Part shown: piece by piece, positions 1 through 34,617 of the stretch | How positions within the stretch are numbered: position 1 is the first letter of the stretch | Layout: each line of letters begins with the position of its first letter | Assembly (NCBI GenBank): GCA_947472765.1 | Contig: CANJCM010000005.1 | Location: 46,527-110,526, forward strand | Origin: Opitutia bacterium | GTDB lineage: Bacteria; Verrucomicrobiota; Verrucomicrobiia; Opitutales; Opitutaceae | Direction: 5' to 3' | Length of the DNA: 64,000 bases | The notes under the pieces: model-generated | The model's database searches: none | Told to the model about the DNA's origin: nothing | Seen by the model: only the letters and a program-made list of their open reading frames with translations | Made by a program: the position numbers and the translations under genes

Positions 1-1742
<1,742 letters not shown>

Positions 1743-1771
1743 GCCCGCCGGCGAGTTTCTGCACCATTCAA

Positions 1772-1800
1772 GGCCCACGAAAGTGGGCCTTTTTGCTTTT
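1772..1800 (+). terminator. Rho-independent terminator after acs
   Basis: A 7-bp GC stem (GGCCCAC / GTGGGCC) closes a GAAA tetraloop and is followed by TTTTTGCTTTT. It lies 30 bases after the acs stop codon. The form is classic and the call is secure. Confidence 0.93.
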
Positions 1801-1833
1801 GTGCGTCTAGCGCGCGTGGCGTCGCCTCGATGA

Positions 1834-3793: not shown

Positions 3794-4782
3794 GAGCGAA
3801 GCGGCCGTCGCGAAACGCCGGATTCACGCTGGTCGAGCTGCTGGTCGCGGCCGCACTCGGCGCCCTGCTCGCAGCGATCGCGGCGCAGTTCGGCGCGCGG
3901 GTGACCGACAGCTTTGCCCGGGCCGCGGGACGTCTGGCGGCGGCCCGCGAGGCGCGAGTTGCGCTCGATCAAATCGGCCGGGACTTCTCGTCGGCGTGGT
4001 TTCGCGACGACGGCAACGTATGGCTCGCCGCGGATCTCATCGCCGATCCCGCGCTGGGCCTGGAGGATCTTTGGGTTTCGGCACCGGTGAACGGCCGACC
4101 GCTCGCCACCGTGACGGCGACCGCCGACGGGCCAATGGAGGATAGTCGCTTCGGTGGAGCCGGGGTTTGGCTGCGATTCTTTACGACGGCCAACGTGACC
4201 GATCCGACAGCGTTTGCGGCCGCGCCGGTGGCGGTCGGCTACCGGATCGTCCGACGAACCCGGACAAACGGCACGCCAGCCGGATACCAGCTTTGTCGTT
4301 TCGCCACTCGTCCTGCGGGTGATGGGGTGGCGGACGGGGTCCTCGAGTCGGGTTACAACCTGACTGCGCCCGCCTACTCCGAGGGCAGTCCAGCGTGGCG
4401 AATGACTCCGGGAGACCCGACAGAGTCCTCCTTCGTCCTCGCTGACGACGTGGTCGACTTCGGCGTCCGGTGCTTCGTTTACGACCGCGGGTCTCCGGAC
4501 GGGCAGCGGTTGATTTTTCCCCAGGCTTCCGGAGCGGCCAGCAATGCGCTGCGAGCAAGTCGGCGCCGGGTGTCGGCGCCGATTACCGGTGAAGCGGACG
4601 AGTTCCCGGACGTGATCGAGGTCGCGGTGAGAATCCTGACGCCTGAGGGAGTGCAGTTGATATCTGCGTGGGAGGCAGGCCGCCTCCCACAGACGCCGGT
4701 GGCAGCCGACGACGAATGGTGGCGCCTGGTTCTGGCGCATTCGCGCGTTCACGTCCGCCGCATCGTCATCCACGCCGCATGA
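3790..4782 (+). CDS. Minor pseudopilin (GspJ-like)
   Basis: A prepilin-like protein of 330 residues starting MRAKRPSRNAG|FTLVELLVAAALGALLAAI. The frame is open further upstream, but the ATG at 3790 gives a normal short basic leader and overlaps the preceding stop codon (ATGA), so it is preferred. The head domain is large (about 290 residues) and contains VALDQIGRDF, like the GspJ-type segment after the helix. It probably forms the pseudopilus tip complex with its H, I and K neighbours. It is longer than a proteobacterial GspJ, as is usual for the verrucomicrobial cassette. Confidence 0.8.
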   Translation: MRAKRPSRNAGFTLVELLVAAALGALLAAIAAQFGARVTDSFARAAGRLAAAREARVALDQIGRDFSSAWFRDDGNVWLAADLIADPALGLEDLWVSAPVNGRPLATVTATADGPMEDSRFGGAGVWLRFFTTANVTDPTAFAAAPVAVGYRIVRRTRTNGTPAGYQLCRFATRPAGDGVADGVLESGYNLTAPAYSEGSPAWRMTPGDPTESSFVLADDVVDFGVRCFVYDRGSPDGQRLIFPQASGAASNALRASRRRVSAPITGEADEFPDVIEVAVRILTPEGVQLISAWEAGRLPQTPVAADDEWWRLVLAHSRVHVRRIVIHAA

Positions 4783-7700
4783 AGCTTGGGCACAGACTGC
4801 CCTGTGCGCGCAGAGACACCGGCGGGCGTCACGCTGGCTTCGTGCTGCTGCTCGCCGTCGCGCTGCTGGCATTCGTGAGCGCGCTGGTGGTTGGGCTCGG
4901 GGCGCTGGCGAAGGCCGAGAGGAGCGGCACGGTCGGGCGGACGCAGCAGGCTCAAGCGAAGGCCAACGCGATGGTTGGCCTGACGGTTGCGCTGGCTCGG
5001 CTGCAACGCTGGGCGGGACCGGACCAACGGGTGACGGCGACGGCGGGGAGCCGGCCGGGAGTGGCGCAGCCGCACTGGACCGGAGTCTGGGACGCGACGA
5101 CCGATTCGACGGCGCCGTCGACCTGGCTGGTGAGTGGCAGCGAAGCAGATGGCGCTGCGATCTCGCCCGACGATCCGCTGAGCGGAGCTTCGGGAGTGGA
5201 GATGTTTCGCAGCAGTGATGCCGGCGATCCCGTTTCCGTACTGGCGCCGGCCGTGGCGATTCGTGATGACTTCGCCTCCGTCGCGGCTCCGCCAGTGGGG
5301 CATTATGCGTGGTGGATTGGGGATGAAGGCGTAAAAGCGCCGGTGGCTTCGGCCGCGCCATCCGCCGCGTTCGGGCACGATTCGGCCGTTAGCTCCGGGG
5401 AGCAGCGTCAGTGGCGACAGGCCGCCGCGCTCGGAGCGAGTCCGCCCGCGTCGGCAGCAGGTCCGATCTTCGAACCGCGGGACGCTCTCAACGCGTCACT
5501 CGTCGAGGCTGGTCGCATCCTGACCCGCGAGCAGTTGGCGTATGTGAAGTCAGGTGACGGCGCGCCGCTCGGCCGTGACGCCGTGATGCGGCGGGCGCTG
5601 ACGTGGACTGCGAACAACCGGAATGTCCTGGCCGATTCGCGGAGCGGCGGGCTCAGGCAGGATCTCTCGCTTGCACCCGAGCTGCTGGGCCCCGCGTTTG
5701 CCGCGTGGGCCGATTATGGATCCCACCTCGAGCCGACGACCGCCGCCGCTGACCCGGCGCATTCGATTCTTCCGGCCTACGGGGCGGATCCGCTGCGGCG
5801 GCGGCACCGCATTGTCGTACCGGTGCGGGCCGCGGGAGTTACCTTTTCCACCGCGCCGGTGCTGTCGTCGTTTTTTCTGCAGTTCAATGTCCGGCGGGTT
5901 GGCGGCAACTCGGCGCCCGCGGCGACGAACGCGATCGAAATTCGGGCGCGGCTGGTGGTGCAGCTCTGGAACCCATTTACCTCGGCCCTCGTGCCGGAGC
6001 CGCTGCGGCTCACGGTAACAGGGCTGCCCGATCTCACGCTGATCGACTCGAACGGCGGGCGGCAGACGATTGCGCTGCAGGCGCGTTTCGGGAGTCCGAT
6101 GCGAATCGCGCTGCCGGCGGACGACGCGGCGTTTCCCGGCGACGCGGACGATCATTCCTGGCTCCCCGGGAGGGTCTATGCGTGGCGAACCCATGGCGGA
6201 ACCAGCGGCGCGTGGGAAACCGAGTTCTACAACCGCACCCTGAGCGTCGCGAACGCCAACCTCTGGATCGTGCCAGCCGGGATCAGTTACCTCCCGCCGG
6301 CAAACAACAGCGTGACGCTGACCATCGCGGGCGCCGAGTCGCAGCTCACCGTCGAACTGCAGAAGGCCGATGACACGCTGCTCTCCACCGTGCGGAGTCC
6401 GCGCTACGCCGCCTTTTCGACCACGCCGCAGCGGACGAACAACAATGACGAATATCGCTTCGGCTTCGCGCTCCGCCTGATCGACCCGGTGGATTTCGCG
6501 GCCGCACCTGGGAACTCGCCGTGGCTGGTGGGCGAGGGAGGCGATCCGCGAGCCGTCGCCACGGGCGAGCCGCTGTATCGGACCGGGAGCGGAGGCGATC
6601 TGCCGAGCGCGTACGTCGGCGTGAGCGGCAACGCCGTGCTCACCGACGAAAACCGGCTGCTTGATCGCGTGATGGGCCGCAGCGGCATGTCGTACAACGA
6701 GGACACGCCGGTCTTCGAGTTGCCGCGCCAGCCGTTGCTTTCGATCGGGCAATTGCAGCACCTCCAGCTCGACGGCGGACGACCCTTCTCCATCGGGAAT
6801 CCCTGGTCAGCGGGCCGGCAAGTGAACGGTTACGCCGCGCCCGAAATCTTCGATCGGTTCTTTTTCACGGGGCTCGATCCGCGGCCCGTGCCCGATGGGC
6901 CGGAGTATCTGCTGCTGCCTCCACCATTGCTCGAGGTTTTGCGCACGAATCCCAGCACGGGTGAGCCCACGACGGCCGCGGACCTCCGTGCGGTGCCGGC
7001 GGCGCGTTCGTCCGCTCTGGTGCTGCAGGCGGGGAGTTTCAACGTGAACTCGATCCAAACGGAAGCGTGGGCGGCGGTGTTGCGAAGCTGCCGTGTCGTC
7101 CCGGGCGAAACCTTCGATTACCTCGAGCCCACCGCGAGCAGCGGCACGGCCGGGGACGACTCGGTCGGACATGAGGCCGCGCCGGGCGCGAGCTTCTTCC
7201 GCTTTTCCCAATCGGCCCAGGAAACCTGGCGCGCTGATGCGGGCTACGCGGCGAGTTCGACCGCGCCGCCCTCGGCGCCTTCGACGCCCTCGGTGGCCAA
7301 TACGCATTTGTATCGGAAGGGCCGTCGCGGCTTGAGCGATGCGGCGGTGAACAACCTGGCGGACGCGATCGTGGCGGCGAATGCGATCCGCCAGCGCGAA
7401 AGCGGACCCTGGCGGAGTTTGGCGGAGTTGGTGAGCCCGCAGTCGTCGCTCGGGGGAAAAAGTCTGTTCGAACACGCCATCGCCGCGGCGGGCTTGAATG
7501 CGGACGTCGCGGAGTTCAGCTCCCAATGGCTGACGCCGGCGGACCTCCTGACGTCCCTTGCTCCGGTGCTCTTCGCCCGGTCGGACACGTTTTGCATCCG
7601 CAGTTACGGCGACGCCGCCAACCCGTTCACGGGCGAGGTCGAAAGTCGCGTGTGGTGCGAAGCCATCGTGCAACGAATGCCGTCGTATTTTGATCCCGCC

Positions 7701-7808
7701 GATGCCGCGGAGACACTGCCGGCGGATCTCACGCGCGCTGTTAACCGGGATTTGGGCCGTCGATTTCAAATCGTGAGTTTCCGCTGGCTGAACCGAACCG
7801 ACCTGTGA
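4779..7808 (+). CDS. Very large GspK/PilX-like cassette protein
   Basis: A protein of about 1009 residues. The N terminus has a basic leader, the site RHAG|FVLLLAVALLAFVSALVVGL and no Glu at +5, as in GspK/PilX, which cap the pseudopilus and lack that Glu. The remaining ~950 residues form a huge exported region, roughly three times the length of GspK. The C-terminal part (SDAAVNNLADAIVAANAIRQRESGPWRSLAELV) recalls the SAM-like helical repeats of GspK. ATG 4779 overlaps the previous stop and is preferred over the longer open frame. I read it as the 'A' protein of the Verru_Chthon-type cassette. The function is unknown; exposure on the cell surface or a role in secretion is inference. Confidence 0.78.
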   Translation: MKLGHRLPCARRDTGGRHAGFVLLLAVALLAFVSALVVGLGALAKAERSGTVGRTQQAQAKANAMVGLTVALARLQRWAGPDQRVTATAGSRPGVAQPHWTGVWDATTDSTAPSTWLVSGSEADGAAISPDDPLSGASGVEMFRSSDAGDPVSVLAPAVAIRDDFASVAAPPVGHYAWWIGDEGVKAPVASAAPSAAFGHDSAVSSGEQRQWRQAAALGASPPASAAGPIFEPRDALNASLVEAGRILTREQLAYVKSGDGAPLGRDAVMRRALTWTANNRNVLADSRSGGLRQDLSLAPELLGPAFAAWADYGSHLEPTTAAADPAHSILPAYGADPLRRRHRIVVPVRAAGVTFSTAPVLSSFFLQFNVRRVGGNSAPAATNAIEIRARLVVQLWNPFTSALVPEPLRLTVTGLPDLTLIDSNGGRQTIALQARFGSPMRIALPADDAAFPGDADDHSWLPGRVYAWRTHGGTSGAWETEFYNRTLSVANANLWIVPAGISYLPPANNSVTLTIAGAESQLTVELQKADDTLLSTVRSPRYAAFSTTPQRTNNNDEYRFGFALRLIDPVDFAAAPGNSPWLVGEGGDPRAVATGEPLYRTGSGGDLPSAYVGVSGNAVLTDENRLLDRVMGRSGMSYNEDTPVFELPRQPLLSIGQLQHLQLDGGRPFSIGNPWSAGRQVNGYAAPEIFDRFFFTGLDPRPVPDGPEYLLLPPPLLEVLRTNPSTGEPTTAADLRAVPAARSSALVLQAGSFNVNSIQTEAWAAVLRSCRVVPGETFDYLEPTASSGTAGDDSVGHEAAPGASFFRFSQSAQETWRADAGYAASSTAPPSAPSTPSVANTHLYRKGRRGLSDAAVNNLADAIVAANAIRQRESGPWRSLAELVSPQSSLGGKSLFEHAIAAAGLNADVAEFSSQWLTPADLLTSLAPVLFARSDTFCIRSYGDAANPFTGEVESRVWCEAIVQRMPSYFDPADAAETLPADLTRAVNRDLGRRFQIVSFRWLNRTDL

Positions 7809-8524
7809 GCTCCCGCTGCCTCCTTCGACTCGTCACGGTGCTTTTGCTGGTCGGCGTCTACGCGACTGGGCCAATGATTTTCGCGGCGCCGCCGCCTACC
7901 GGGGGCAAGGAGGCGGTGACGATCCGGTTTGGAGTCTTTGCGCTTCGGCCGATCAAAAGCCTCGGCTTTGTCCCGGCGCCAAACGCGGCTCCGCAACCGC
8001 TGGAGTTCTATCCCACGGCCCGCTCGCCCGAATATGTCGCGGTGGTGACAGGACCGCTCACGTTCGTTGACTCGGAAACGGGTCGGGTGGTGGCGGAAGT
8101 CGGGTTCCCGCCGAATCTAACCAAAGCCCTGTTGGTGTTCGTGCCCAACCGTCCGGGCCGCGGGGCGGGGTTCGAGGTGCTGGTCATCGACGACGCCCAG
8201 GGCGCGTCCGGGGTGGGGCAGCTTTCCATTTTGAACCTGAGCGGTCTTGAGCTGCACGGTGCGCTCGGCCGCCGGGCCATCCGGCTGGGTGCCGGCCTGC
8301 AGCAACTCGGCGCGATTCGCGGAGCCGAAAAGATCGAGCTGCGTGCCACTCACGCGGGTCGTGAATTCCGGGCTTACACCGATCAAGTTGCCGTCCGTGG
8401 CGAGGAACGGGCTCTGCTGATCCTGTTTCCTCCGTTTTACGCCGGTTCGCTGGAAATCCAAGGACGTCTGCTGGTCGACGAAGGCGCGGATTCGGCGAAG
8501 AATCCGGGTGCTTCCGGCCGCTAA
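7805..8524 (+). CDS. Secreted protein of unknown function coupled to pseudopilin cassette
   Basis: I do not recognise the family. The 239-residue product begins with a cleavable-looking signal peptide (hydrophobic VTVLLLVGVYATGPMIFAAP), so export is likely. The body is rich in beta-strand-prone segments (VTIRFGVFALRPIKSL, LLVFVPNRPGRGAGFEVLVI) and has no cysteines or enzymatic motif that I can name. Its GTG start overlaps the preceding TGA (GTGA), which makes it a sixth member of the pseudopilin operon. It could be a secreted substrate or an envelope partner of the pseudopilus. Confidence 0.72.
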   Translation: MSSRCLLRLVTVLLLVGVYATGPMIFAAPPPTGGKEAVTIRFGVFALRPIKSLGFVPAPNAAPQPLEFYPTARSPEYVAVVTGPLTFVDSETGRVVAEVGFPPNLTKALLVFVPNRPGRGAGFEVLVIDDAQGASGVGQLSILNLSGLELHGALGRRAIRLGAGLQQLGAIRGAEKIELRATHAGREFRAYTDQVAVRGEERALLILFPPFYAGSLEIQGRLLVDEGADSAKNPGASGR

Positions 8525-8538
8525 CGCTCGATTGGGGA

Positions 8539-8613
<75 letters not shown>

Positions 8614-8740
8614 GTCCTATCCCATGGTCCGGTGAGCCGGTCCAATCTTTCCAAACTGCTTCGCCGTCGGAGCAGGGGTGGGTATTAGGCGGCGGCGCAA
8701 TTTTCCGGCAAGCAAAAATGGGTCCCGGCGCCGGCCACCG

Positions 8741-8870
8741 GCCGATTTGCGATTACCGATTCTCAATGGCCAATTTTCAATCCGAGCCGAACCCGCTGGC
8801 GCTCGTCGCGCCGTGGCGGTGGCAGGGATTGAAAATTGAGAATTGAAAATTGGTAATCTGGAATTTCGGG
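8741..8870. repeat. Inverted-repeat element, copy 1
   Basis: First copy of an element found again at 9291-9426. Both copies start GCCGATTTGCGATTACCGAT and end TGGTAATCTGGAATTTCGGG. AT-rich arms flank a GC-rich core (GCTCGTCGCGCCGTGGCGGT). In this copy the left arm has diverged (TCTCAATGGCCAATTTTCAAT) while the right arm is intact. Confidence 0.85.
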
Positions 8871-8954
8871 AGCTCCACAGCCGAGGCCGGAGGTCGGAGG
8901 ACAGACGGCGGACGACAGAGCGGGCAACTCGTTCTCCTTCTCTCGGTGGAGCGG

Positions 8955-8992
8955 AGAACGAGAACGATTACGAGAATGAGAACGAGGAAAGC
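8955..8992. repeat. GA-rich imperfect tandem tract
   Basis: A run of 6-base units close to GAACGA or GAATGA (GAGAACGAGAACGATTACGA and so on). It is preceded by GTTCTCCTTCTCTC, which can pair with its start. It looks like a simple-sequence tract without a coding role. Confidence 0.5.
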
Positions 8993-9207
8993 GCGTGGCG
9001 GGGTGCTTTGAATAGATGGCCGAAGCTGCCTCGGCCTGCGTCTCACTACGGGTCACAACACGGGCATCGCTAGCTGCCGCGAGGACGACGTCCGGGAGGG
9101 GCAACACCGAGCCGTCCGAGGATTTTTTTGCGCCTTTTGTGCCTTTTTGCGGCCAACACCCGCTCGGTCTCTGTGTTTTCGTCGTAAACTGGAATCTAAC
9201 GGGAAGA

Positions 9208-9233
9208 GGCCCGGCGGTGAGCGCCGGCCCTAC
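9208..9233 (-). repeat. REP-like hairpin
   Basis: A 26-base imperfect palindrome. Its minus-strand reading begins GTAGGGCCGGCGCTC and ends GCCGGGCC. It shares the GTAGGG..CTCG..C pattern with elements at 18368, 18414, 42227, 48318, 63531 and 63647. Confidence 0.6.
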
Positions 9234-9290
9234 GAGGGCGAGCGTTGTCGTCTTCTGCCGAAAGCGGCGAATGCCTCCCCGAGCGAAAGC

Positions 9291-9426
9291 GCCGATTTGC
9301 GATTACCGATTTTCAATTCTCAATTTTCAATCCGGGTCGAACACGCCGGGGCTCGTCGCGCCGTGGCGGTGGCGTTGGCCGGGATTGAAAATTGAGAATT
9401 GAAAATTGGTAATCTGGAATTTCGGG
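9291..9426. repeat. Inverted-repeat element, copy 2
   Basis: Second copy, 550 bases after the first and in the same orientation. Its arms at 9301-9333 and 9382-9414 pair over 33 bases with a single mismatch, around a 48-base GC-rich core. Transcribed in either direction it would form a very stable long hairpin. No open reading frame or transposase lies within it, so it is MITE-like or REP-like. An AT-rich fragment at about 48209-48243 looks like a degenerate partial relative. Confidence 0.85.
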
Positions 9427-19684: not shown

Positions 19685-20923
19685 ATGAAGGACTCGCGCA
19701 TCGTCATCACCGGCGTCGGACTGACCGCACCCAACGGCAATACGCTGGCGGAATTCCGCGGCAATCTCCTGACCGGGGTGGCCGGAATCGAGCGCATCGA
19801 GATCCGGTACATGGGCCCGCAACTGGCGGGGGTCTGCCACTTCGACCCGCTCAAGTACCAGAAAAAGAAGGAGGTCCGCGTCGGCACCCGGGCCGGCAGC
19901 ATCAGCATCTACTGCGCTCGCGAAGCCCTGGCAGACAGCGGTGTGTCGGTCGAGACGCTGTCCAAGGATCGGACCGGCATTTACATTGGCCTCACCGAGC
20001 ACGGCAACGTCGAGACGGAGAACGAAATCTACGCCATCTCGAAGTTCGGCTACGACACGAAGTACTGGTCCCATTACCACAACCCCCGGACTGTCGCCAA
20101 CAACCCGGCCGGTGAGGCGTCGCTCAATCTCGGCATCACCGGGCCCGCCTACACCATCGGCGCCGCCTGCGCCGCGGGTAACATGGGCCTGATTCACGCC
20201 GCGCAGATGCTGCGGCTCGGCGAGGTGGACTTCGCGATTTGCGGTGGCGTCAGCGAAAGCATCCACACCTTCGGCATCTTTGCGGGTTTCAAGTCCCAGA
20301 ACGCGCTCGCGACGCACGACGTGCCCCACAAGGCCTCACGTCCCTTCGACCTCGCCCGCAACGGCATCGTGATTTCCGAGGGCGGCTGCCTCTACACCCT
20401 GGAACGCCTCGAGGACGCGCAGAAGCGGGGAGCGAAGATTTACGCCGAGATCGCCGGTTACCACGTCAACAGCGACGCCAGCGACTACGTCCTTCCCAAT
20501 CCGGTGCGGCAGGAGGAATGCATCCGCGCCGCGATCCGCCGGGCCGGCCTGACCCCGCAGGACATTCACATCGTCAACACCCACGCCACGGCCACGCCGC
20601 TGGGGGACATTCAGGAGTGCGAGGGGATCCGCGCGGTGTTCGGCGCCGGCTGTCCCGACACTTACATCAACAACACCAAGAGCTTCATCGGACACGCCAT
20701 GGGCGCCGCTGGGGCTTTGGAACTCGCGGGTAATCTTCCATCCTTCGACGACCTCACCGTGCATCCCACGATCAACGTCGTGAACCTCGACCCCCAGTGC
20801 GCGTTGCCGGGCCTCGTCCTGAATCACCCGCGCAAGGTTGCGAAAGTGGATACGATCCTGAATAACTCCTTCGGGATGCTCGGAATAAATTCCACGTTGA
20901 TTGTTAAGCGGTTTGTCCCCTAA
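19685..20923 (+). CDS. FabF-like 3-oxoacyl-ACP synthase (KAS II type)
   Basis: A condensing enzyme that would extend an acyl chain on ACP with malonyl-ACP. It has 412 residues from ATG 19685; the open upstream frame has no family match. The triad is complete: Cys162 in GAACAAGNMG, His300 in NTHATATPLGD and His337 in SFIGHAMGAAG. Several normally invariant neighbours differ (NTHATA instead of NAHGTS; RPFDLARNGIVISEGG instead of RPFDxxRDGFVxGEG), so it is probably a specialised paralogue and not the housekeeping FabF. It is followed by its own ACP gene 17 bases downstream and begins the putative unusual-lipid locus. Confidence 0.88.
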   Translation: MKDSRIVITGVGLTAPNGNTLAEFRGNLLTGVAGIERIEIRYMGPQLAGVCHFDPLKYQKKKEVRVGTRAGSISIYCAREALADSGVSVETLSKDRTGIYIGLTEHGNVETENEIYAISKFGYDTKYWSHYHNPRTVANNPAGEASLNLGITGPAYTIGAACAAGNMGLIHAAQMLRLGEVDFAICGGVSESIHTFGIFAGFKSQNALATHDVPHKASRPFDLARNGIVISEGGCLYTLERLEDAQKRGAKIYAEIAGYHVNSDASDYVLPNPVRQEECIRAAIRRAGLTPQDIHIVNTHATATPLGDIQECEGIRAVFGAGCPDTYINNTKSFIGHAMGAAGALELAGNLPSFDDLTVHPTINVVNLDPQCALPGLVLNHPRKVAKVDTILNNSFGMLGINSTLIVKRFVP

Positions 20924-20940
20924 TTCCGCGCACCTGACCC

Positions 20941-21201
20941 ATGACCAAAGACGAATGCAAGAAGCTGGTGCTCCATATCATCGCGGACATCGCGCCGGAT
21001 GAGGACCTCAGCAACGTCAAACCCGACGTCCGGCTGCGGGATCAGCTCCAGCTCGATAGCATGGATTTCCTCGATATCGTCATGGAACTCCGGAAGCGCC
21101 ACGGGATCGAAGTCCCGGAGGCGGATTACGTCCAGCTCGCGAGCCTCGACAGCTGCGGCGAGTACCTGACGCCGAAGTTCAACGCCCTCGCGAAGCACTG
21201 A
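20941..21201 (+). CDS. Acyl carrier protein (dedicated)
   Basis: A small acidic carrier protein of 86 residues. The phosphopantetheine site is LQLDSMDFLDIVMEL, with Ser40, followed by the usual helix III region. It starts 17 bases after the ketosynthase stop and is closed by a strong terminator, so ketosynthase and ACP form a two-gene unit. The sequence after the DSM motif (RKRHGIEVPEADYVQLASLDSCGEYL) is like ACPs of secondary or special fatty-acid systems. No phosphopantetheinyl transferase is in the window. Confidence 0.9.
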   Translation: MTKDECKKLVLHIIADIAPDEDLSNVKPDVRLRDQLQLDSMDFLDIVMELRKRHGIEVPEADYVQLASLDSCGEYLTPKFNALAKH

Positions 21202-21225
21202 GCGAATCAGGAGCTCCTGACGACA

Positions 21226-21252
21226 AAGCCGGGCCCACCGCCCGGCTTTTTG
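21226..21252 (+). terminator. Rho-independent terminator after ACP gene
   Basis: The stem AAGCCGGGC / GCCCGGCTT closes a five-base loop and runs into TTTTT. It separates the ketosynthase-ACP pair from the flavoprotein genes downstream. Confidence 0.9.
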
Positions 21253-21285
21253 CTGGTCGTGGCTCAGGTGGTGGCAGCTGAGTGG

Positions 21286-21504
21286 CACGGGTCTCCCGAC
21301 CCGTGATTTTTTCTGCCGATCGCACCGAGGTGGAATCCAAAGCCAGGCTGTTTGGCGTGGCCGTGTCCGTGAGGACAGGGACTTCCAAATCGCTTCGCCG
21401 CAAGTTCGTCCCGCTGCTCACGCAGCGGGCTACAATGCGAACTTCGGAATCCCCCTCATGGGTCAGCAGACCCATGCCACGATGATGGAGCCACCGCTGC
21501 GGGC
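21286..21504. repeat. Cluster of palindromic hairpins before the first flavoprotein gene
   Basis: Three hairpins in about 220 bases. CACGGGTC-TCCC-GACCCGTG followed by ATTTTTT lies at 21286-21312 and could also terminate transcription. CCCGCTGCTCACGCAGCGGG lies at about 21412-21431. CATGGGTC-AGCA-GACCCATG lies at about 21459-21478. They resemble different repeat families of the REP type. No gene is seen in the stretch. Confidence 0.55.
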
Positions 21505-22989
21505 TTGTTCTCGCCGGTCGCGGTGGTCTCAATCGCCAATTCGTCCTTGAATACGCGTACTCATTACGACGTGGCCATCATCGGCGCCGGCATGTCCGGC
21601 CTCGCCGCCGGCATCCGGCTGGCGCACTTCGGCAAGGCGGTCTGCATCTTCGAGCGCCACAACGCGGTCGGCGGCTTGAATGGGTTCTACAGCATCGCGG
21701 GCCGGAAGTACGACGTGGGCCTGCATGCGATGACCAATTTCGTGCGGCCGGGCGTAAAGGGGACGCCGCTCACCAAACTGCTCCGGCAACTTCGCATCGA
21801 GCGGGAGGAATTCGCCTTGTGCGAACAACGGCAGTCCCGGGTCGCGTTCGGCCCGCGCGGCGAGACTTCGCTGCGGTTCACGAATGATTTCGCGGTGCTC
21901 GAGCAGGAGGTGGCGCAGCGCTTTCCGGCCGAGGCGGACGGATTTCGGCGGCTCGTCGCGGCGGTGCGGACCTTCGATGACGTTTCGCTCGACGCGAAGC
22001 CCGTGTCGGCCCGAAGCATCGTGCGCGAGCACCTCCGCGATCCGCTGCTCGAGGACATGCTCTTCTGTCCGTTGATGTACTACGGCAGCGCAACGGAGCA
22101 AGACATGGAGTTCGGGCAGTTCGTGATCATGTTCAAGGCGCTCTTCCTCGAGGGCTTCGCGCGTCCGTTCGAAGGCGTTCGTCAGGTGCTGCGGGTGCTG
22201 CTCGACAAATACCGCGCCGCCGGCGGCGAGCGCCGGATGAAGTGCGGTGTACAGCGGATTTCGCGACGCGCGGATGGCGTCAATGTGCTGCGCCTCGACT
22301 CCGGCGAGGAAATCACCGCGGCCCATGTCATCTCCTCCATCGGCGCGCCGGAAACCGAGCGGCTGATGGCGAACGAAGTCGGGCGTGAGCAGGCGGCCCC
22401 GGCGGCGACGCCCGGACGTCTGTCGTTCGTCGAAACGATCAGCGTGCTGAAACCGCAGCCCGCGGACCTCGGGTGGGGCGACGATACGATCATCTTCTTC
22501 AACGACTCGCCGCGGTTCGACTACGCCCGCCCCGGGGATCCCGTCGATCCGCGCAGCGGCGTCATCTGCATTCCGAACAACTTCGAGTACGGGTCCGGCA
22601 AAACCTTGTCCGAGGGACTGGTGCGCGTGACCTGCCTCGCGAACTACGATTACTGGGCCGGACTAAACGAGGAAACCTACCGCGCGGAAAAGCAGCGGTG
22701 GTACCGGACCGTGCAGGCAAGTGCGCAGCGTTTCCTGCCGCCACTGACCGCCCCAACGGCCTTCGATCGTGCGGTGGTGGCGACGGATATGTTCACGCCG
22801 CGCACGATCACCAAGTTTACCGGACACCTGCAGGGCGCGATCTACGGGGCGCCGGTCAAGCAGCGCCAGGGTCGGACCGCGCTGCCCAACGTCTACCTGT
22901 GCGGCACGGATCAGGGTTTTCTGGGCATCGTCGGCGCCATGCTCAGCGGCATCTCGATGGCGAACTATCACATCTTGCAAAAGGGTTAG
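21505..22989 (+). CDS. Phytoene-desaturase-like FAD-dependent oxidoreductase 1
   Basis: A flavoprotein of up to 494 residues of the phytoene desaturase / carotenoid isomerase / retinol saturase superfamily. These enzymes desaturate, saturate or isomerise hydrophobic polyenes. The FAD dinucleotide motif is DVAIIGAGMSGLAAGIRLAHFGK with the acidic end at IFERH, then NAVGGLNGFYSIAGRKYDVGLHA. The C-terminal FAD segment is LPNVYLCGTDQGFLGIVGAMLSG. The start is uncertain: TTG 21505, GTG 21523 or TTG 21547, the last giving MNTRTHYDVAIIG. It is unlikely to be a carotenoid enzyme, since no phytoene synthase is near, and its neighbours are fatty-acid enzymes. Confidence 0.82.
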   Translation: MFSPVAVVSIANSSLNTRTHYDVAIIGAGMSGLAAGIRLAHFGKAVCIFERHNAVGGLNGFYSIAGRKYDVGLHAMTNFVRPGVKGTPLTKLLRQLRIEREEFALCEQRQSRVAFGPRGETSLRFTNDFAVLEQEVAQRFPAEADGFRRLVAAVRTFDDVSLDAKPVSARSIVREHLRDPLLEDMLFCPLMYYGSATEQDMEFGQFVIMFKALFLEGFARPFEGVRQVLRVLLDKYRAAGGERRMKCGVQRISRRADGVNVLRLDSGEEITAAHVISSIGAPETERLMANEVGREQAAPAATPGRLSFVETISVLKPQPADLGWGDDTIIFFNDSPRFDYARPGDPVDPRSGVICIPNNFEYGSGKTLSEGLVRVTCLANYDYWAGLNEETYRAEKQRWYRTVQASAQRFLPPLTAPTAFDRAVVATDMFTPRTITKFTGHLQGAIYGAPVKQRQGRTALPNVYLCGTDQGFLGIVGAMLSGISMANYHILQKG

Positions 22990-23012
22990 GACACCGGCGA
23001 AATGCCCGCGCC

Positions 23013-23870
23013 ATGAAAACTCTCTTTCGCCTCGCGCTTCTACCGCTCGCGATCGCCTCGTTGCAGGCCGCACCCGGCCCGAATCCCAAGGAAAATCTCG
23101 GCCTCCAGCTGTGGAGCCTCCGGGCCACCTCCAAGGAGAGCATGACCGCCGCGCTGGACCTCGCCAAGGGCTACGGATTCAAGACGGTCGAGACGGCCGG
23201 GACGGGGAATCTCACGGTGGCCCAGTTCACCGCCGAGCTGAAGTCGCGCGGTCTCTCCGCGTTCAGCGCGCACATCGGCTACGACGCGGCGAAGAAGGAC
23301 ATCGCCGCTGCCATTCGCGAGGTGAAGGCGATGGGCGCCAAATTTCTCATCATCCCGAGCCTGCCGCATCCGTCCGCCTTTGGTGCCAATGAGGCCCGCA
23401 AGTTCGCGGCCGACTTCAATACCTTCGGCGCCGCCTGCAAGGCCGCGGGGATTCGCTTCGGTTATCATCCGCACGGTTTCGAATTCACCCCCACGGGTGC
23501 CGCCCGCGGCGAACTCGCCTTCGATGTCCTCGCGCGCGAAACCGATCCCGAACTCGTCTGCTTCGAGATGGATATCTTTTGGGCCTTCCATGCCGGTCAG
23601 GATCCGGCCCGGCTATTTGCCAAGTATCCCGGTCGCTGGGCCCTGGCGCACGTGAAGGACATCCGGAAGGGCGCCGTCACCGGCCTCTCCACCGGCAGCG
23701 CGCCGCCCACGGACAATGTCGCGGTCGGTTCCGGCCAGCTTGACTGGACCGAGATTCTTACGGCGGCCCAGGCCGCAGGCGTGGAGCACTATTTCATCGA
23801 GGACGAGACACCGACGCCGCTGCAGTGCATCCCGGACAGCCTGAAGTTCATCCGCGGGCTGAAGCTCTGA
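23013..23870 (+). CDS. Exported sugar-phosphate isomerase/epimerase-like TIM barrel
   Basis: A 285-residue protein with a signal peptide ([19 protein letters not shown]) and an AP-endonuclease-2/xylose-isomerase-like TIM barrel: [56 protein letters not shown] and [10 protein letters not shown]. The Glu, His and Asp residues that usually bind the divalent metal are present. Verrucomicrobia and planctomycetes carry many secreted paralogues of unknown substrate, probably sugars. It sits, oddly, between the two flavoprotein genes of the lipid locus. ATG 23013 starts exactly at the signal peptide. Confidence 0.85.
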
Positions 23871-23898
23871 TCAGCCTCCGCGCCGCGCCCACTTCTGC

Positions 23899-25365
23899 AT
23901 GGCTTACGACTGGCTCAAAGGCGTCGCCGACGAGTATGATGTAATCGTGATTGGCAGCGGCCTGGGCGGCCTGACCGGCGCCAACGTCCTGGCGAAAGCC
24001 GGCCACCGGGTACTGCTGCTCGAACACCATTACCAGTTCGGCGGACTCGCGACCTGGTTCACGCGCAAGGGCGGACACATCTTCGACATTTCGCTGCACG
24101 GCTTTCCGAGCGGGATGATCAAGTCCTGCCGCAAGTATTGGACGAAGGAGATCGCCGGGGCGATCGTCCCGCTGAAGGACATCCGCTTCGTCAACCCGCA
24201 GATGGATGTCTGGACGACCTTCACGCGCGAAGACTACACCCGGGTGCTGGTCGAGAAATTCGGCCTCGAGCGCGCGCAGGTGGAGCGGTTCTACGAGCAC
24301 CTGCGGTCGATGAACTTCTACGACAACAACCCGGAGACCACCGGGCAGATGCTCGAGCGGTACTTCCCCGGACGTGACGACGTGAAGCGGTTGCTGATGG
24401 AGCCGATCGCCTATGCCAACGGATCGACGCTCGACGACCCGGCGATCACGTATGGAATCGTCTTCTCGAATTTCATGGGCGCGGGCGTCTACACCTTCCG
24501 CGGTGGCTCCGACGACCTGATCGAAAAGATGGTCGCGGAGCTGAAGCGCAACGGCGTGGAAGTGCGGAAGAAGGTCCTCGTGGATCGTATCCTAGTTGAG
24601 GAACGCAATGGTCGGAAAGTGGCGACCGGCATCGTGGCCAAGAGCGGCCGTGTCATTCGCGCCCGCGCCGTCCTGTCGAACGCCAACATTCACAACACGG
24701 TTTTCCGCCTCGCCGGCGAAGAGAGTTTTCCGGCGGACTTCGTGCAGGAAGCGAAAGCCGTCCGCATCAACTCGAGCTCGTGCCAGGTCTACCTCGGGAT
24801 TCGCAAGGGCGAGACGATTCCCCACATCGGCGATCTCGTTTTTACTTCAGCCAACCCCAAGTTCGACAGCGCGGAGCTGACGGATTTTCACACGACGAGC
24901 CGGACCTTCTCAGTTTACTATCCCGACACCCGGCCGGGCTCGGATCGATACACGGTCGTCGTCTCGCTCAACGGCCAGTACGGCGACTGGGCGGCGCTGT
25001 CGGAGGAAGATTACGAGCGGGAAAAGCAGCGCCTGATCGAGGAGTCTCTCGTTGCGCTGGAGCGGTTCATTCCCGATGTGCGCGGCAAGATCGACTGGAC
25101 CGAGGCCGCCACGCCGCGGACGATCGAGCGCTACACGACCCACGCCCGCGGCACGTCCTTCGGCACGAAATTCGAAGGCCTCAAGGTTTCGATGGAGTTG
25201 CCCGACAAGTTGCCCGGCCTCTATCACGCGGGTTCGGTCGGCATCATCATGTCGGGCTGGCTTGGGACCATCAATTACGGCGTCATTGTTGCGAACAAGA
25301 TCGACCAGTATCTCTTTCAAAATCGCCCGGCCGCTCCCGCGCCTGCGGCCCAATCCCAGCCATGA
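23899..25365 (+). CDS. Phytoene-desaturase-like FAD-dependent oxidoreductase 2
   Basis: A 488-residue second member of the same flavoprotein superfamily. The FAD motif is [36 protein letters not shown], followed by [19 protein letters not shown]. The middle has the [27 protein letters not shown] segment typical of CrtI/CrtH/RetSat-type proteins, and the C terminus has [19 protein letters not shown]. It is clearly diverged from the flavoprotein at 21505, so the two probably perform successive or different steps. The stop overlaps the ATG of the dehydratase gene (ATGA), tying it to the fatty-acid-type enzymes. Confidence 0.86.
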
Positions 25366-25823
25366 CTCCCGTCACCGACCTCATCCCGCACCGGCCTCCA
25401 TTTCTCTTTGTCGATGCCATCGTGTCGGAACTTCCGGATGGGATGATTGCGTCGCGGCGCTGGCGCCCTGAGGAGGATTTCTACCGCGGACATTATCCCG
25501 GCGCCCCGATCACTCCCGGCGTTCTGCTCTGCGAGGCGGTGTTTCAAACGGCCGCCTGTTTTCTGGCGCTGAAGGCGCGCGCCGCCGGAGCAAAGCCGGG
25601 CGAGGGCGTGCCGTTGATCGCGAAAATCAGCGACGTGCGCTTTCGCCAGCCGGTTTATCCGGGCGACGACATTCTGCTCGAGGTGAAGCAGAAGGACGCG
25701 ATGGGCGGCTTCACGATGATGAGCGGCTCGATCAAGAAGGCCGACGGCACCCGCGTGATGAACGTGGATTTCTCGGTGGCGTGGAAGACGCCCGCCGCGA
25801 GTGGTGGCGAAGCCAGGCCTTGA
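25362..25823 (+). CDS. FabZ-like 3-hydroxyacyl-ACP dehydratase (hotdog fold)
   Basis: A 153-residue enzyme that would dehydrate 3-hydroxyacyl-ACP to the trans-2-enoyl form. The signature is [14 protein letters not shown], followed by [25 protein letters not shown]. It contains the catalytic His44 and Glu58 in the positions of FabZ His/Glu, and later [22 protein letters not shown] 25362 overlaps the flavoprotein stop. It is probably a pathway-specific paralogue acting with the ACP at 20941. FabA-type isomerase activity cannot be excluded. Confidence 0.88.
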
Positions 25824-25842
25824 TCTGCGATCGCGCGCTCCG

Positions 25843-26682
25843 ATGTCCGACTTCCTCCAGCTCACCGGCCAGACGTTTCTCGTCTTCGGCGTCGCCAACC
25901 GGAAGAGCGTGGCGTGGTTTGTCGCGAAGACGCTGGAAGAGCAGGGGGCTCGCGTCCTCTACAGCGTTCGCTCCGAGGCCCGGAAGCAGTCGCTGACGGC
26001 GCTGCTCGCGGCCAAGCCGGTTTTCATCTGCGATGTGGAGCAGGAAGGCGCCGTCGATCGGCTCGCGTCGGAAGTCGCCGCCGCGGGACACGCGCCGCTC
26101 GCAGGCATCGTCCACTCGATCGCGTTCGCGAATTACTCCGAGGGCTTCAAACCGTTCCACGAGACGAAGCGGGCCGACTTCCTCCAGGCGACCGCAGTCT
26201 CCGCCTTCTCGCTGGTCGAGATGGCCCGGGCGTTCAAGCCGCACCTCGCGCCGAATGCGTCCGTCGTGACCATCGGCATTTCGTCGCTGCTCGTGACGCC
26301 CGACAACTACGGTTACATGGGCCCGATCAAGGCCGCCCTGGAATCCGCCGTCCGCTTCCTCGCGAAGTCTTTCAGCGCGACGAGCGCCGTGCGCTTCAAC
26401 GCGGTTGGAGCCGGGCCGCTCAAGACGAGTGCGTCCGCCGGGATTCCCGGTTATTTGGAGAGCTACCTGTACGCCGAGAAACTGACGTTTCGGAAGAAGA
26501 ACCTCGAGACGGCGGAGGTCGCCAATGTCGTGCTGTTCCTGCTTAGCCCACGCAGCAGTGGCATCAATGGCACGACCCTCGTCGTCGATGCCGGGCTCGG
26601 CTCCAACTATTTTGATCAGGAAATCGTCCGGCTCACCATGCGGCCGGAAGTGAAGTCGGGGAACGCGTCCCCGTCCGCCTGA
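25843..26682 (+). CDS. FabI-like enoyl-ACP reductase (SDR family)
   Basis: A 279-residue short-chain dehydrogenase of the FabI subgroup, reducing enoyl-ACP with NAD(P)H. The start [21 protein letters not shown] matches the FabI cofactor segment. The active pair is Tyr156-x6-Lys163 in [12 protein letters not shown], the same numbering as E. coli FabI. The end ([18 protein letters not shown]) carries the usual C-terminal signature. ATG 25843 is chosen over an upstream start inside the dehydratase gene's end. With the ketosynthase, ACP and dehydratase it supplies three of the four fatty-acid elongation steps; no ketoreductase is in the locus. Confidence 0.87.
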
Positions 26683-26683
26683 C

Positions 26684-27709
26684 ATGCGGTTCGAAAACGT
26701 CTGCCTCGAGTCGCTGGCGGTCGCGCTGCCAGAGGAAATCTGGACCTCCGCGGACATCGAGGAACGGCTCCGCCCGCTGTACGAGCGCTTGAAGCTGCCG
26801 GCCGGGCGCCTCGAGCTGATGACCGGGATCCGCGAACGCCGGATGTGGCCGGTCGGGACCCGGCCCTCCGACGCCAGTGCGGCCGCGGGCCGCAACGTCC
26901 TCGCCAAATCGCAACTCAGTGCCGCGCAGGTCGAACTCTTCATCCATGCGGCCGTGAGCCGCGACATGCTCGAGCCGGCGACGGCCTCGTTTGCGCATCG
27001 CAAGATTGGACTGCCGGCGACGGCGCAGATCTTCGATGTGTCGAACGCGTGTCTCGGATTTCTTAATTCGCTGACCGTGGCGGCGGGCTTGATTGAGTCG
27101 GGACAGATTCGGTGCGCGCTCGTCGCCGCCGGCGAGAATGGTCGTCCGCTGGTCGACCAGACACTGCGCACCCTCGTCGAACAGCCGCTCTCACGAAACG
27201 AGATCAAACCGTTCTTCGCGAATCTCACGATCGGGTCGGGCGCGGTGGCTGCGATGGTGTGCCATCGTTCGCTGGTGAAAGGGCGGGCGCACCGGCTGCT
27301 CGGCGGCATCGCCCGCGCGGCGACGCAGCATAGCGAACTCTGCCAGGGCGACACCCACGGTACCGAGGCGCTCGCGATGCAGACCGACTCGGAACAGTTG
27401 CTCGTCGCGGGTGTGACGGTGGCGAAGGAAACCTGGACCGATTTCACCGCTGACCACGGGACGGATTTTCAGCGCTACGTCTGCCATCAAGTCGGCACGG
27501 CGCATCGGAGAAAGTTATACGAGACCCTCGGTCTCGACCTTGCGCGGGACTTCTCGACCTTCGAGACGCTCGGCAACACCGGATCGGTTGCGCTGCCGGC
27601 CACGCTCGCCGCGGGCGTGGAAGCCGGAGCGATCCGCGAGGGCGATCGCGTGGGATTGCTCGGGATCGGGAGCGGATTGAACTGCCTGATGCTCGCGCTC
27701 GAATGGTAA
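26684..27709 (+). CDS. oleA: OleA-like acyl-CoA head-to-head condensing enzyme (thiolase fold)
   Basis: A 341-residue KAS III/thiolase-superfamily enzyme. OleA joins two fatty acyl-CoA chains to a long 2-alkyl-3-keto acid, the first step of long-chain olefin synthesis. Key residues are Cys123 in FDVSNACLGFLNSL, His268 in VCHQVGTAH, Asn298 in LGNTGSV, and Glu97 in SRDMLEPATAS, which fits the extra glutamate base that distinguishes OleA from FabH. GIRERRMWPVGTRPSDA also fits OleA. It follows the enoyl reductase by one base and overlaps the next gene by seven. A FabH-type priming enzyme is the alternative, but the OleB neighbour argues for OleA. Confidence 0.8.
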   Translation: MRFENVCLESLAVALPEEIWTSADIEERLRPLYERLKLPAGRLELMTGIRERRMWPVGTRPSDASAAAGRNVLAKSQLSAAQVELFIHAAVSRDMLEPATASFAHRKIGLPATAQIFDVSNACLGFLNSLTVAAGLIESGQIRCALVAAGENGRPLVDQTLRTLVEQPLSRNEIKPFFANLTIGSGAVAAMVCHRSLVKGRAHRLLGGIARAATQHSELCQGDTHGTEALAMQTDSEQLLVAGVTVAKETWTDFTADHGTDFQRYVCHQVGTAHRRKLYETLGLDLARDFSTFETLGNTGSVALPATLAAGVEAGAIREGDRVGLLGIGSGLNCLMLALEW

Positions 27710-28596
27710 GCGACGTCCAAATTCCGGCGGCGCTGAAGGGGGAGTACCCGTTCACACCGAAGTCGTTTCGCACCGCGTCCGGCGCCCGCCTGAGCTTCCT
27801 CGACGAAGGACCGCGCACGAACTCCGCGGTCCTGATGGTCCACGGCAATCCCACCTGGTCGTTTTACTACCGCGGCTTGGTCAAGGCGCTCGCACCGGAA
27901 CGACGCTGCGTCGTTCCGGATCACGTAGGCATGGGACTCTCGGAAAAGCCGGAGGACTATCCTTACACTCTCGCGACTCGAATCGCAGACCTCGAGGCGC
28001 TCGTGGCGTCGCTCGGGCTGACGGAGATCGATCTCGTCGTGCACGACTGGGGTGGCGCGATTGGGTTTGGTTTCGCGGGCCGCAATCCCGGATTAATCCG
28101 GCGAATGGTGATTCTGAATACGGCGGCGTTTCCCGCGCCGCACATTCCCGCGCGGATCTCGGCGTGCCGGCTGCCGGTGCTCGGCCCGTTGTTGGTCCGC
28201 GGCTTGAACGGTTTTGCCGGTCCAGCCACGTGGATGGCGATGCACCGGCGCAAACTCTCGGCGGTGGAAAAGCAGGGCTACCTGCTGCCGTACGATAGCT
28301 GGCAGCATCGCGTGGCGGTCAATGCGTTCGTCCGGGACATCCCGATGCAGGCGTCGCACCCGACCTGGACGACGTTGACCGAAGTCGAACGCGGGCTGGC
28401 TCAATTCCGGGATCGAACAGCGCTCGTGATCTGGGGCGGTCGGGACTTCTGTTTCCACGACGCCTTTCTGCGGCGCTGGCAGGAGATCTTTCCGACCGCG
28501 AAGGTGCACCGACTTGCTGATGCCGGGCACTACGTCCTCGACGATGCGCGTGAGGAAGTCGTACCGCTGGTGCAGGCGTTTCTCGGGTCCGACTAG
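27703..28596 (+). CDS. oleB: OleB-like alpha/beta hydrolase (haloalkane-dehalogenase family)
   Basis: A 297-residue hydrolase. OleB decarboxylates the beta-lactone made by OleC to the final cis-olefin. The oxyanion motif is HGNPTWSFYYR, the nucleophile is Asp115 in VVHDWGGAIG, with His276 in DAGHYVLDD and Asp248 in IWGGRDFCF. The Asp nucleophile plus Asn49/Trp116 are the halide/lactone-pocket residues of this family. ATG 27703 lies within the last codons of oleA, so the two are translationally coupled. Without the neighbour it could be called a haloalkane dehalogenase; OleC and OleD do not follow and are not elsewhere in the window. Confidence 0.8.
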   Translation: MVSDVQIPAALKGEYPFTPKSFRTASGARLSFLDEGPRTNSAVLMVHGNPTWSFYYRGLVKALAPERRCVVPDHVGMGLSEKPEDYPYTLATRIADLEALVASLGLTEIDLVVHDWGGAIGFGFAGRNPGLIRRMVILNTAAFPAPHIPARISACRLPVLGPLLVRGLNGFAGPATWMAMHRRKLSAVEKQGYLLPYDSWQHRVAVNAFVRDIPMQASHPTWTTLTEVERGLAQFRDRTALVIWGGRDFCFHDAFLRRWQEIFPTAKVHRLADAGHYVLDDAREEVVPLVQAFLGSD

Positions 28597-33705: not shown

Positions 33706-34617
33706 TCAGGCGGCCAGGTCGTTGAATTCGGCAAAGCTTTTCACGGCCCACGCCTTCTCGGTGCGGCGTGCGAGTCCATTGAGCACGCCGCCCGGCCCCA
33801 GTTCCCAGAATTCCGTGGCGCCTGCAGCCGCCGCGGCGCGCATGCAGTCTTCCCACAACACCGGCGATACGACCTGGCGGACGAGCGCAGCCTTGATGGC
33901 GGCGGGGTCCTGGATGGCCTGACCGGTGGTGTTGGTGAAAATCGGAAAATTCGGGGCGCGGAACGCGATCGGCTCGAGGAAGGCCGCGAATGCCGCTCGC
34001 GCCGGCTCCATCAGCCGCGAGTGATATGCGCCGGCGACGTTGAGTGGCATGACCCTCTTGATTCCGCGATCCTTGGCGGCCGCGACTGCCGCGGCGACCT
34101 TCGTCTTCTCGCCGGAAATGATGATCTGTCCCGGCGCATTGAAGTTCGCCAACTCGATGTCGAACTCGGCGCACAACTCGCGGACCTTGGCCCGCTCCTC
34201 GCCGATGACCGCCGCCATGCCGCCGGTGGTCTGCTCGCAGGCCTGCTGCATCAGCCGGCCGCGCTCGGCGACGACCTTCAGGCCGGTCGCAAAATCAAAC
34301 ACCCCAGCCGCGGCACACGCCGTGACTTCGCCAAGGCTGAGACCGAGCGCATAGCTTGGCTCGCCCGCGGGAATCTTGCCCATTTCACGCAACGCTGCCT
34401 GCAGGGCCAGTCCGTGGACGAACAACGCCGGCTGGCAGACCTTCGTTTGGGTAAGCTCCGCTTCCGGTCCTTCGAAGCAAACTTGCTTCAAATCCCACCC
34501 CAAAACACGGCCAGACTCGTCGTACAGGGCCCGCGCCGCCGGCGATTGCTCGTACAGCGACTTCCCCATCCCGACTTTTTGGGCCCCCTGTCCCGCAAAT
34601 AAAAATGCCAATGCCAT
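33706..34617 (-). CDS. fabD: Malonyl-CoA:ACP transacylase
   Basis: A 303-residue enzyme that loads malonate from CoA onto ACP for fatty-acid elongation. It shows FLFAGQGAQKVGMG, the nucleophile serine in ALGLSLGEVTA, the conserved NFNAPGQIIISGE and the catalytic His in NVAGAYHSRLMEPA. It is followed at 2 bases by lepA. It is 6 kb from the special ketosynthase/ACP locus and on the other strand; as the only fabD in the window it may serve both general and special synthesis. Confidence 0.96.
   Translation of the reverse strand: MALAFLFAGQGAQKVGMGKSLYEQSPAARALYDESGRVLGWDLKQVCFEGPEAELTQTKVCQPALFVHGLALQAALREMGKIPAGEPSYALGLSLGEVTACAAAGVFDFATGLKVVAERGRLMQQACEQTTGGMAAVIGEERAKVRELCAEFDIELANFNAPGQIIISGEKTKVAAAVAAAKDRGIKRVMPLNVAGAYHSRLMEPARAAFAAFLEPIAFRAPNFPIFTNTTGQAIQDPAAIKAALVRQVVSPVLWEDCMRAAAAAGATEFWELGPGGVLNGLARRTEKAWAVKSFAEFNDLAA

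Follow-up and report, generated by a model that had tools for sequence, protein, structure and literature searches.

In Shewanella, the acyl carrier proteins (ACPs) of the Pfa synthase are believed to hand a predicted 16:4 chain to the head-to-head acyl condensing enzyme OleA, after which OleD, OleC and OleB complete the 31:9 hydrocarbon (PMC6463001). The same pairing of a Pfa synthase with OleABCD, likewise with a 31:9 product, is known from Geobacter bemidjiensis; in Xanthomonas and Stenotrophomonas the OleABCD enzymes are served by the ordinary fatty-acid supply. Combined, Pfa and OleA yield a polyene ketone such as 31:8. In Desulfotalea psychrophila and the anammox bacteria, type II fatty acid synthase (FASII) clusters place CrtI-like flavoproteins beside ketoacyl-ACP synthase (KAS) and FabZ genes; such flavoprotein-bearing clusters have already been proposed to make polyenes in D. 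psychrophila, where C31:8 and C31:9 hydrocarbons occur without Pfa, and these hydrocarbons have been reported in Planctomycetes as well (PMC2649909). Here we describe a gene set that combines elements of these systems, located at 19685-28596 of a 64,000-nucleotide stretch (the window) of contig CANJCM010000005.1 of an Opitutia bacterium with a genome of about 5 Mb. We consider it likely, though well short of certain, that the set makes a dedicated, probably polyunsaturated ACP-bound chain that is handed to OleA and likely joined head-to-head to a long polyene hydrocarbon. The features are as follows:

19685..20923 (+), KAS, a FabF-like ketosynthase (PF00109/PF02801) with catalytic C162/H300/H337/K332 intact
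20941..21201 (+), ACP with phosphopantetheine serine S40 (PF00550)
21225..21249 (+), possible terminator 3' of the ACP gene, a 10-bp hairpin followed by T's, noted by eye and absent from the terminator scan
21547..22989 (+), FAD1, a CrtI-superfamily flavoprotein (PF01593) with a TTG start that homologues support
23013..23870 (+), a ninth gene, TIM-barrel sugar-isomerase-like (xylose-isomerase-like; PF01261), between FAD1 and FAD2
23899..25365 (+), FAD2, a second CrtI-superfamily flavoprotein (PF01593)
25362..25823 (+), FabZ-like dehydratase with H44/E58 (PF07977)
25843..26682 (+), FabI-like enoyl reductase with Y156/K163 (PF13561)
26684..27709 (+), OleA, head-to-head acyl condensing enzyme with C123/E97/H268/N298 (NF006720, over cut-off)
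27703..28596 (+), OleB-like alpha/beta hydrolase with D115/D248/H276 (PF00561), a predicted beta-lactone decarboxylase by its position after OleA

An earlier, sequence-only reading of the window had named eight genes running in one direction across this interval, and Pfam domains and translations recover all eight, with each active-site residue it gave for KAS, ACP, FabZ, FabI, OleA and OleB at its place; the TIM-barrel gene at 23013-23870 had been overlooked. The intervals are 17 nucleotides (nt) between KAS and ACP, 345 between ACP and FAD1, 23 between FAD1 and the TIM-barrel gene and 28 between the latter and FAD2. From FAD2 onward the genes overlap or nearly touch, as had been noted (-4 nt between FAD2 and FabZ, 19 between FabZ and FabI, 1 between FabI and OleA, -7 between OleA and OleB). 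Several products score below the cut-offs of their family models: KAS falls below every NCBIfam fabF cut-off shown (top 309.6 bits vs 493.75), the FabZ-like protein reaches 90 bits vs a FabZ model cut-off of 113, and the FabI-like protein reaches 171.8 bits with its top FabI model, whose cut-off is 362.

A role of the set in supplying chains to OleA is well supported at the level of genome comparison, on the strength of co-occurrence, synteny and counts of the polyene synthase PfaA. Among 38 relatives, FAD2 (E below 1e-90) and OleA (E<=1e-20) are each present in 34, and the same four genomes lack both (G009, G028, G030 and G031; the assembly of G009 is fragmented, and its FAD2 match, at 1.4e-7, is weak). 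In a sample of 188 genomes of the class, overlapping the former by at least three genomes, FAD2 (E<=1e-60) and OleA (E<=1e-30) are found in 33 each and together in 32; the exceptions are G138, with FAD2 only, and G171, with OleA only, and all 33 FAD2 matches fall within the taxonomic order of the window. Gene order is retained as well. Specifically, FAD2-FabZ-FabI-OleA is kept in all 11 loci mapped in the genus, seven of which carry the run from KAS, and FAD2-FabZ-FabI-OleA-OleB is present in three of nine loci from other families of the order. KAS-ACP-FAD1 is contiguous in eight of the nine loci fetched for it (exception L072); L059 has it as well, with FabI-OleA no more than 8.4 kb away in the opposite arrangement. 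Another eight OleA loci were examined in the order: OleA has FabI as neighbour in six of them and OleB in six. In G128 FAD1, FAD2, FabI, OleA and OleB share one stretch. In two large protein searches, the 120 of 7999 matches listed for each were all close, the named ones being Opitutaceae, Opitutus, Horticoccus or Verrucomicrobia.

The association extends to a second phylum. An OleA alignment scan of named genomes yielded 561 confirmed stretches, and the best 80 of these split by their score to the window's OleA into 17 loci at 308-346 bits (L137-L153; 16 titled planctomycetes and one 'bacterium', hereafter the planctomycete kind) and 63 at 227-282 bits, mostly from Desulfobacterota/Deltaproteobacteria but also from Phycisphaerae, other planctomycetes, Myxococcota, Acidobacteria and others. 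Genes of the window's set lie near OleA in three of the 17 (OleA, FabI, FabZ, FAD2, FAD1, ACP, KAS, OleD and OleC in one stretch in L149; OleA, FabI, FabZ, FAD2, FAD1 and KAS in L141; OleA and FabI in L144) and were not seen in the remaining fetched flanks. Within 1.5-kb flanks in the planctomycete-kind genomes, FAD1 is preceded by ACP in 15/16 and by KAS in 14/16, FAD2 is followed by FabZ in 14/17 and by FabI in 11/17, and FAD1 and FAD2 are at most 1 kb apart in 13 of the 16 genomes having both. At 14 further planctomycete FAD2 loci, KAS-ACP-FAD1-FAD2 occurs in eight, and KAS-ACP-FAD1-FAD2-FabZ-FabI together with ole genes in five (L210, L211, L212, L213 and L217). L210 reproduces the window's order from KAS through OleB, followed by OleC, with a single 245-aa (amino acid) frame inserted before FabZ; in L211 OleA is upstream and OleB-OleC-OleD lie behind FabI, FAD1 of L213 is divided between two frames, and L206 and L215 have FAD2 alone. 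The conserved synteny that the sequence-only reading had proposed to look for is thus present both in the window's order and in Planctomycetota, and since it is kept in relatives and in another phylum, the grouping exceeds chance as far as gene order can tell.

In an even draw of 392 Planctomycetota genomes, FAD2 (E<=1e-60) is found in 98, OleA (E<=1e-30) in 147 and both in 96, leaving OleA without FAD2 in 51. The FAD2 threshold was chosen once a gap in the scores had been seen, between 3.0e-67 for the weakest match kept and 2.1e-33 for the strongest one left out, and the bit thresholds for OleA likewise after the list had been seen; at >=255, 269, 275 and 280 bits, the OleA genomes that also carry FAD2 number 94/102, 93/96, 92/93 and 88/89, respectively. 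Not every locus is so tidy. KAS-ACP-FAD1 often stands apart from the ole genes, FAD2 is found without the other genes in six of the nine loci outside the genus, and G138 and two of the 392 Planctomycetota (G534 and G602) have FAD2 without detected OleA, as would be expected if the module served to build an unsaturated or cyclic membrane fatty acid of unusual kind and OleA and OleB were co-inherited neighbours using ordinary fatty acids. We hold this to be improbable in view of the joint absence of FAD2 and OleA from four relatives, the presence of OleA in 96/98 FAD2-bearing Planctomycetota and the occurrence of ole genes within the same run in two phyla. In G138 itself (L056, 8352-15877), an 8-kb interval contains FAD2, OleC and OleD, and no OleA was found in the genome at 1e-30, whether by gene loss or through an assembly gap.

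Supply of OleA by the module is further indicated by what accompanies OleA elsewhere. Partners were compared in 40 of the 80 genomes, comprising every planctomycete-kind genome (17 of 17) and a selection of 23 from the remaining 63, made for spread over phyla. FAD2 is present in 17/17 planctomycete-kind genomes vs 0/23 others and FAD1 in 16/17 vs 0/23 (the exception being G233, where a contig edge truncates FAD2), whereas PfaA exceeds its cut-off in 0/17 of the planctomycete kind (best 377 bits) vs 17/23 others. The six others below the cut-off include four partial matches of 862-932 bits, G250 with 394 bits and G258 with none. One cultured carrier of the module is Lacipirellula limnantheis I41, in which FAD1, FAD2 and OleA were detected and PfaA gave no match at 1e-40. 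A ketosynthase (KS)-bearing frame directly precedes OleA in 25 of the 63 other loci; the seven measured span 1882-2490 aa, and the four scanned match models of PfaA and other type I polyketide synthases below the cut-offs and contain FabA-type dehydratase domains over the cut-off of one FabA model. PfaA (TIGR02813) was not found over its cut-off in the window genome, where a best match of 155 bits vs 1010.1, in a 448-aa frame, led us to reject a PfaA synthase as a candidate, and none of the 38 relatives passes that cut-off. In an OleA tree of 58 rows (quick search), the 34 rows of module-bearing lineages all lie on one side of a single branch with a Shimodaira-Hasegawa-like approximate likelihood ratio (SH-aLRT) of 100, for which reason the change of partner is read from these sequences as one event in the sampled tree. 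Kinship would inflate any p-value, and plain counts are relied upon for that reason. In the same tree, the OleA-OleB pair of G171, a class member outside the order (L055, 7740-9783), groups with Pfa-type OleAs.

That the condensing enzyme of the window is a true OleA and not a FabH is indicated by its sequence. It scores 431.8 bits against NF006720 (cut-off 285), and among PDB chains the group of 3row scores 205-212 bits (3row itself 212), with the first chain outside the group at 75. Both NF006720 and 3row are labelled 3-oxoacyl-ACP synthase III; we take them to represent OleA, 3row being presumably the Xanthomonas enzyme. For the OleB-like protein the top family model is haloalkane dehalogenase at 134.6 bits vs a cut-off of 241, scores that alone do not separate the two families, and the gene is called OleB because it directly follows OleA here and in other phyla. 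The concern raised beforehand that these proteins might belong with FabH and the haloalkane dehalogenases is therefore settled for OleA, and the family scores leave it standing for OleB. oleC and oleD adjoin each other on another contig of the same genome (C142, locus L042). OleC scores 575 bits with NF006754, over the cut-off of 478, and 466 vs 900 with the olefin beta-lactone synthetase model, its N-terminus extending beyond the stretch examined; OleD scores 363 bits vs a cut-off of 580 with what is still its top model. With OleA-OleB in the window and OleC-OleD on C142, all four Ole enzymes are, by these assignments, encoded in the genome at two separate places. Taken together, co-occurrence, synteny and a true OleA lend good genomic support to the earlier proposal of a dedicated ACP-bound chain joined head-to-head. 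Two side observations concern OleA elsewhere: in a Myxococcaceae bacterium (L130), an initial OleA-OleC-OleD set is succeeded on the same stretch by a second, diverged OleA (173 bits) and an OleD (105 bits), and in some planctomycetes, namely L211 (14624-17122), G444, G401 and G280, OleA lies inside frames of about 830-870 residues, over twice the usual length, which are possible fusions judging from the reading frames.

The two flavoproteins share 24% identity with each other, and among the 25 best NCBIfam families shown for each, neither passes a cut-off. The best score of FAD1 is 66 bits vs 587; the best family of FAD2 is the carotenoid isomerase TIGR02730 at 109 bits vs 587, and TIGR02734 gives 81 vs 238. 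The structure model of FAD1, with a predicted local distance difference test (pLDDT) score of 82.9, matches PDB entry 4rep best, at a template modelling (TM) score of 0.70 and with no substrate indicated; that of FAD2 is poor (pLDDT 62.9), and its fold matches, of which the best is likewise 4rep, carry little weight on that account. With the carotenoid enzymes CrtI, CrtD and CrtISO, FAD1 and FAD2 thus have in common the amine-oxidase-type flavin adenine dinucleotide (FAD) fold and 4rep as top match, but they show only 15-18% identity in those matches, remain below the cut-offs and are linked to fatty-acid genes. Although the top family and fold matches are carotenoid enzymes, it is very unlikely that the two are carotenoid enzymes beside fatty-acid genes by chance, given the scores of FAD2 and the fact that in both phyla the flavoprotein genes have stayed next to KAS-ACP or FabZ-FabI; membership of FAD1 and FAD2 in the carotenoid families was rejected on the NCBIfam scores. 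A tree made by quick search, which returned a long-branch warning, places FAD1, FAD2 and the anammox-type flavoproteins in three separate clades. The distance from carotenoid enzymes on which the sequence-only reading depended is borne out as far as the model scores and the two clades of their own reach, the tree having contained no true carotenoid enzyme.

A different doubt concerns the direction of the chemistry. The CrtI superfamily includes isomerases and reductases, the top score of FAD2 is to a carotenoid isomerase, and homologues are labelled retinol reductase by a source. The module could thus feed OleA while its flavoproteins act as RetSat-like reductases or set cis/trans geometry, the product being no polyene but some special hydrocarbon or ketone, whether saturated, mono- or di-unsaturated, a reading that the same co-occurrence and synteny would fit. 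We regard it as possible but unlikely, because the module stands where PfaA, a polyene synthase, stands beside other OleAs, and because C31:8 and C31:9 have been reported for Planctomycetes (PMC2649909).

The sequence-only reading had also drawn on ladderane lipids, and a close tie to their clusters is not supported. In 31 planctomycete genomes only weak FAD2 matches of 25-31% identity were found, and five of the six such loci examined have the order FabZ-KAS-KAS-flavoprotein. In one of them, L198, the second KAS carries, by eye, V163, N298, Y300, G302, E333 and Q342, the same six substitutions given for Kuste3606 in Table 2 of PMC2649909, and a radical SAM/B12 gene lies 3' of the flavoprotein; on these two grounds L198 is taken as an anammox locus. 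Its flavoprotein shares 25% identity with FAD2 and 22% with FAD1 and belongs to a separate clade. Between 18534 and 30430 of the window there is no radical SAM gene and no KAS with lost catalytic residues, both of which L198 has. Although CrtI-like flavoproteins beside KAS and FabZ genes are common to both systems, a ladderane-type cluster that would close the chain into strained rings in the manner of anammox bacteria is for these reasons scarcely credible here, and membership in the anammox group was rejected on the 22-25% identity, the separate clade, the lack of a radical SAM gene and the intact KAS residues. The likeness to the D. psychrophila clusters is drawn from their description; in the excerpt of that paper no ole genes are named for either kind of cluster, and FabI is placed in unrelated anammox clusters, whereas FabI, OleA and OleB lie inside the run in the window (PMC2649909). 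Two anammox flavoproteins that were tested had no CrtI activity (PMC4790861). A further locus, L202 (G384, 106-9352), groups a pair of CrtI-like flavoproteins and a pair of KAS with three radical SAM/B12 genes in a single run, and is apparently another, undescribed relative of the ladderane-type clusters, judged by gene content.

Returning to a polyene chain made for OleA, the set provides KS, ACP, dehydratase and enoyl reductase, domains in the Pfa megasynthase, as separate type II proteins, which is the basis for proposing a dissociated synthase. In such a scheme, KAS and ACP would extend the chain, with malonyl transfer and keto-reduction provided by the housekeeping synthase; FabZ would dehydrate, and FabI would reduce the enoyl group in some cycles only; and FAD1 and FAD2, acting as isomerases or desaturases, would set the double bonds that remain, a job done in the Pfa synthase by the FabA-type domains. 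OleA would then condense two chains, OleD would reduce the product, OleC would close the beta-lactone and OleB would decarboxylate it. Malonyl transfer, keto-reduction and the FabA-type isomerase of Pfa are without counterpart in the set, which adds the two flavoproteins instead. Compared with OleABCD of Xanthomonas and Stenotrophomonas, the OleA family and the four-enzyme route are in common, and the window differs in that KAS, ACP, FabZ, FabI and flavoprotein genes of its own accompany OleA in a single run. We infer the flavoprotein chemistry and the type of product. The chain is held to be polyunsaturated on the analogy with Pfa and on the reports of C31:8 and C31:9 from D. psychrophila and Planctomycetes, and by that analogy the likeliest product is probably a hydrocarbon of the C31:9 type (hentriacontanonaene), assembled from a pair of 16:4-like chains. 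We see evenly balanced prospects for the fullest form of this proposal, a fully dissociated, Pfa-independent type II polyene synthase in which two CrtI-superfamily flavoproteins, in place of FabA-type domains or oxygen-dependent desaturases, set double bonds on ACP-bound chains, serving as the source of C31:9 in Opitutales and Planctomycetes and as a second, unrelated supplier of OleA. Sukovich and colleagues (2010) are said to have found the nonaene in an Opitutaceae strain, TAV2, and in Planctomyces maris.

To the scattered loci and FAD2-only genomes described above must be added several further points that weigh against this proposal. FAD1 is not beside FAD2 in six of the 14 planctomycete loci, the change of OleA partner being one event means that kinship inflates the counts, and the set itself is without FabG or a malonyl transferase. 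Module and Pfa-like genes may coexist, since one member of the genus (L050, G013:C297) combines the FAD and Ole genes with a partial PfaA-like match at 861.5 bits. We know of no assay of such a flavoprotein on acyl-ACP. Finally, producers of C31:9 are described in a review as also making eicosapentaenoic or docosahexaenoic acid (PMC4882568).

The pathway had been called undescribed, which is true only in part: ole genes in Verrucomicrobia and Planctomycetes are already published (PMC7158056, PMC10176705), OleA homologues are known also from Opitutae (PMC7064751), and the new element is the supply of chains to OleA. In the open-licence literature, judged by titles and the starts of abstracts, no paper was found that connects ole genes of Verrucomicrobia or Planctomycetes with phytoene-desaturase-like flavoproteins, nor did the portions available describe the gene set, its association with OleA in two phyla or its standing in for PfaA. 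Polyunsaturated long-chain hydrocarbons are known from a bacterium without a known polyene synthase (PMC2649909), for which this set, present in two phyla, offers a concrete candidate. If the proposal is true, CrtI-type flavoproteins gain a new reaction, chains reach OleA from two unrelated suppliers, and the source of the polyene hydrocarbons of these phyla becomes genetically testable.

Several smaller features of the locus deserve mention. The database entry for FAD1 (P0121, 472 aa) begins 8 codons 3' of the TTG at 21547, within the first strand of the FAD-binding fold, and homologues favour the TTG. The set is possibly transcribed in two parts and may be split after ACP, given the hairpin and T's in the 345-nt gap behind that gene; the terminator scan placed a different hairpin at 21286-21305 and returned 6 terminator-like sites vs 8.0 in shuffles. 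The TIM-barrel gene, which by eye has a likely signal peptide, lies between the flavoproteins in the window, L022 and L029 and is not there in five more loci of the genus that carry the run beginning at KAS; it was rejected as a part of the pathway, being present in two of the seven genus loci that have this run, and is likely a passenger or recent insertion on this distribution. A gene with an acyl-transferase domain (FabD-like) lies 5 kb downstream of the set on the opposite strand (33706-34617, -), with matches resembling the PfaA acyl transferase near the same place in several relatives, and its predicted product could be a source of malonyl-ACP. In two families of the order, a sigma-54 response regulator stands directly 5' of KAS-ACP-FAD1 (L059, 10383-11882; L067, 5355-6917), a hint as to the regulation of that unit.

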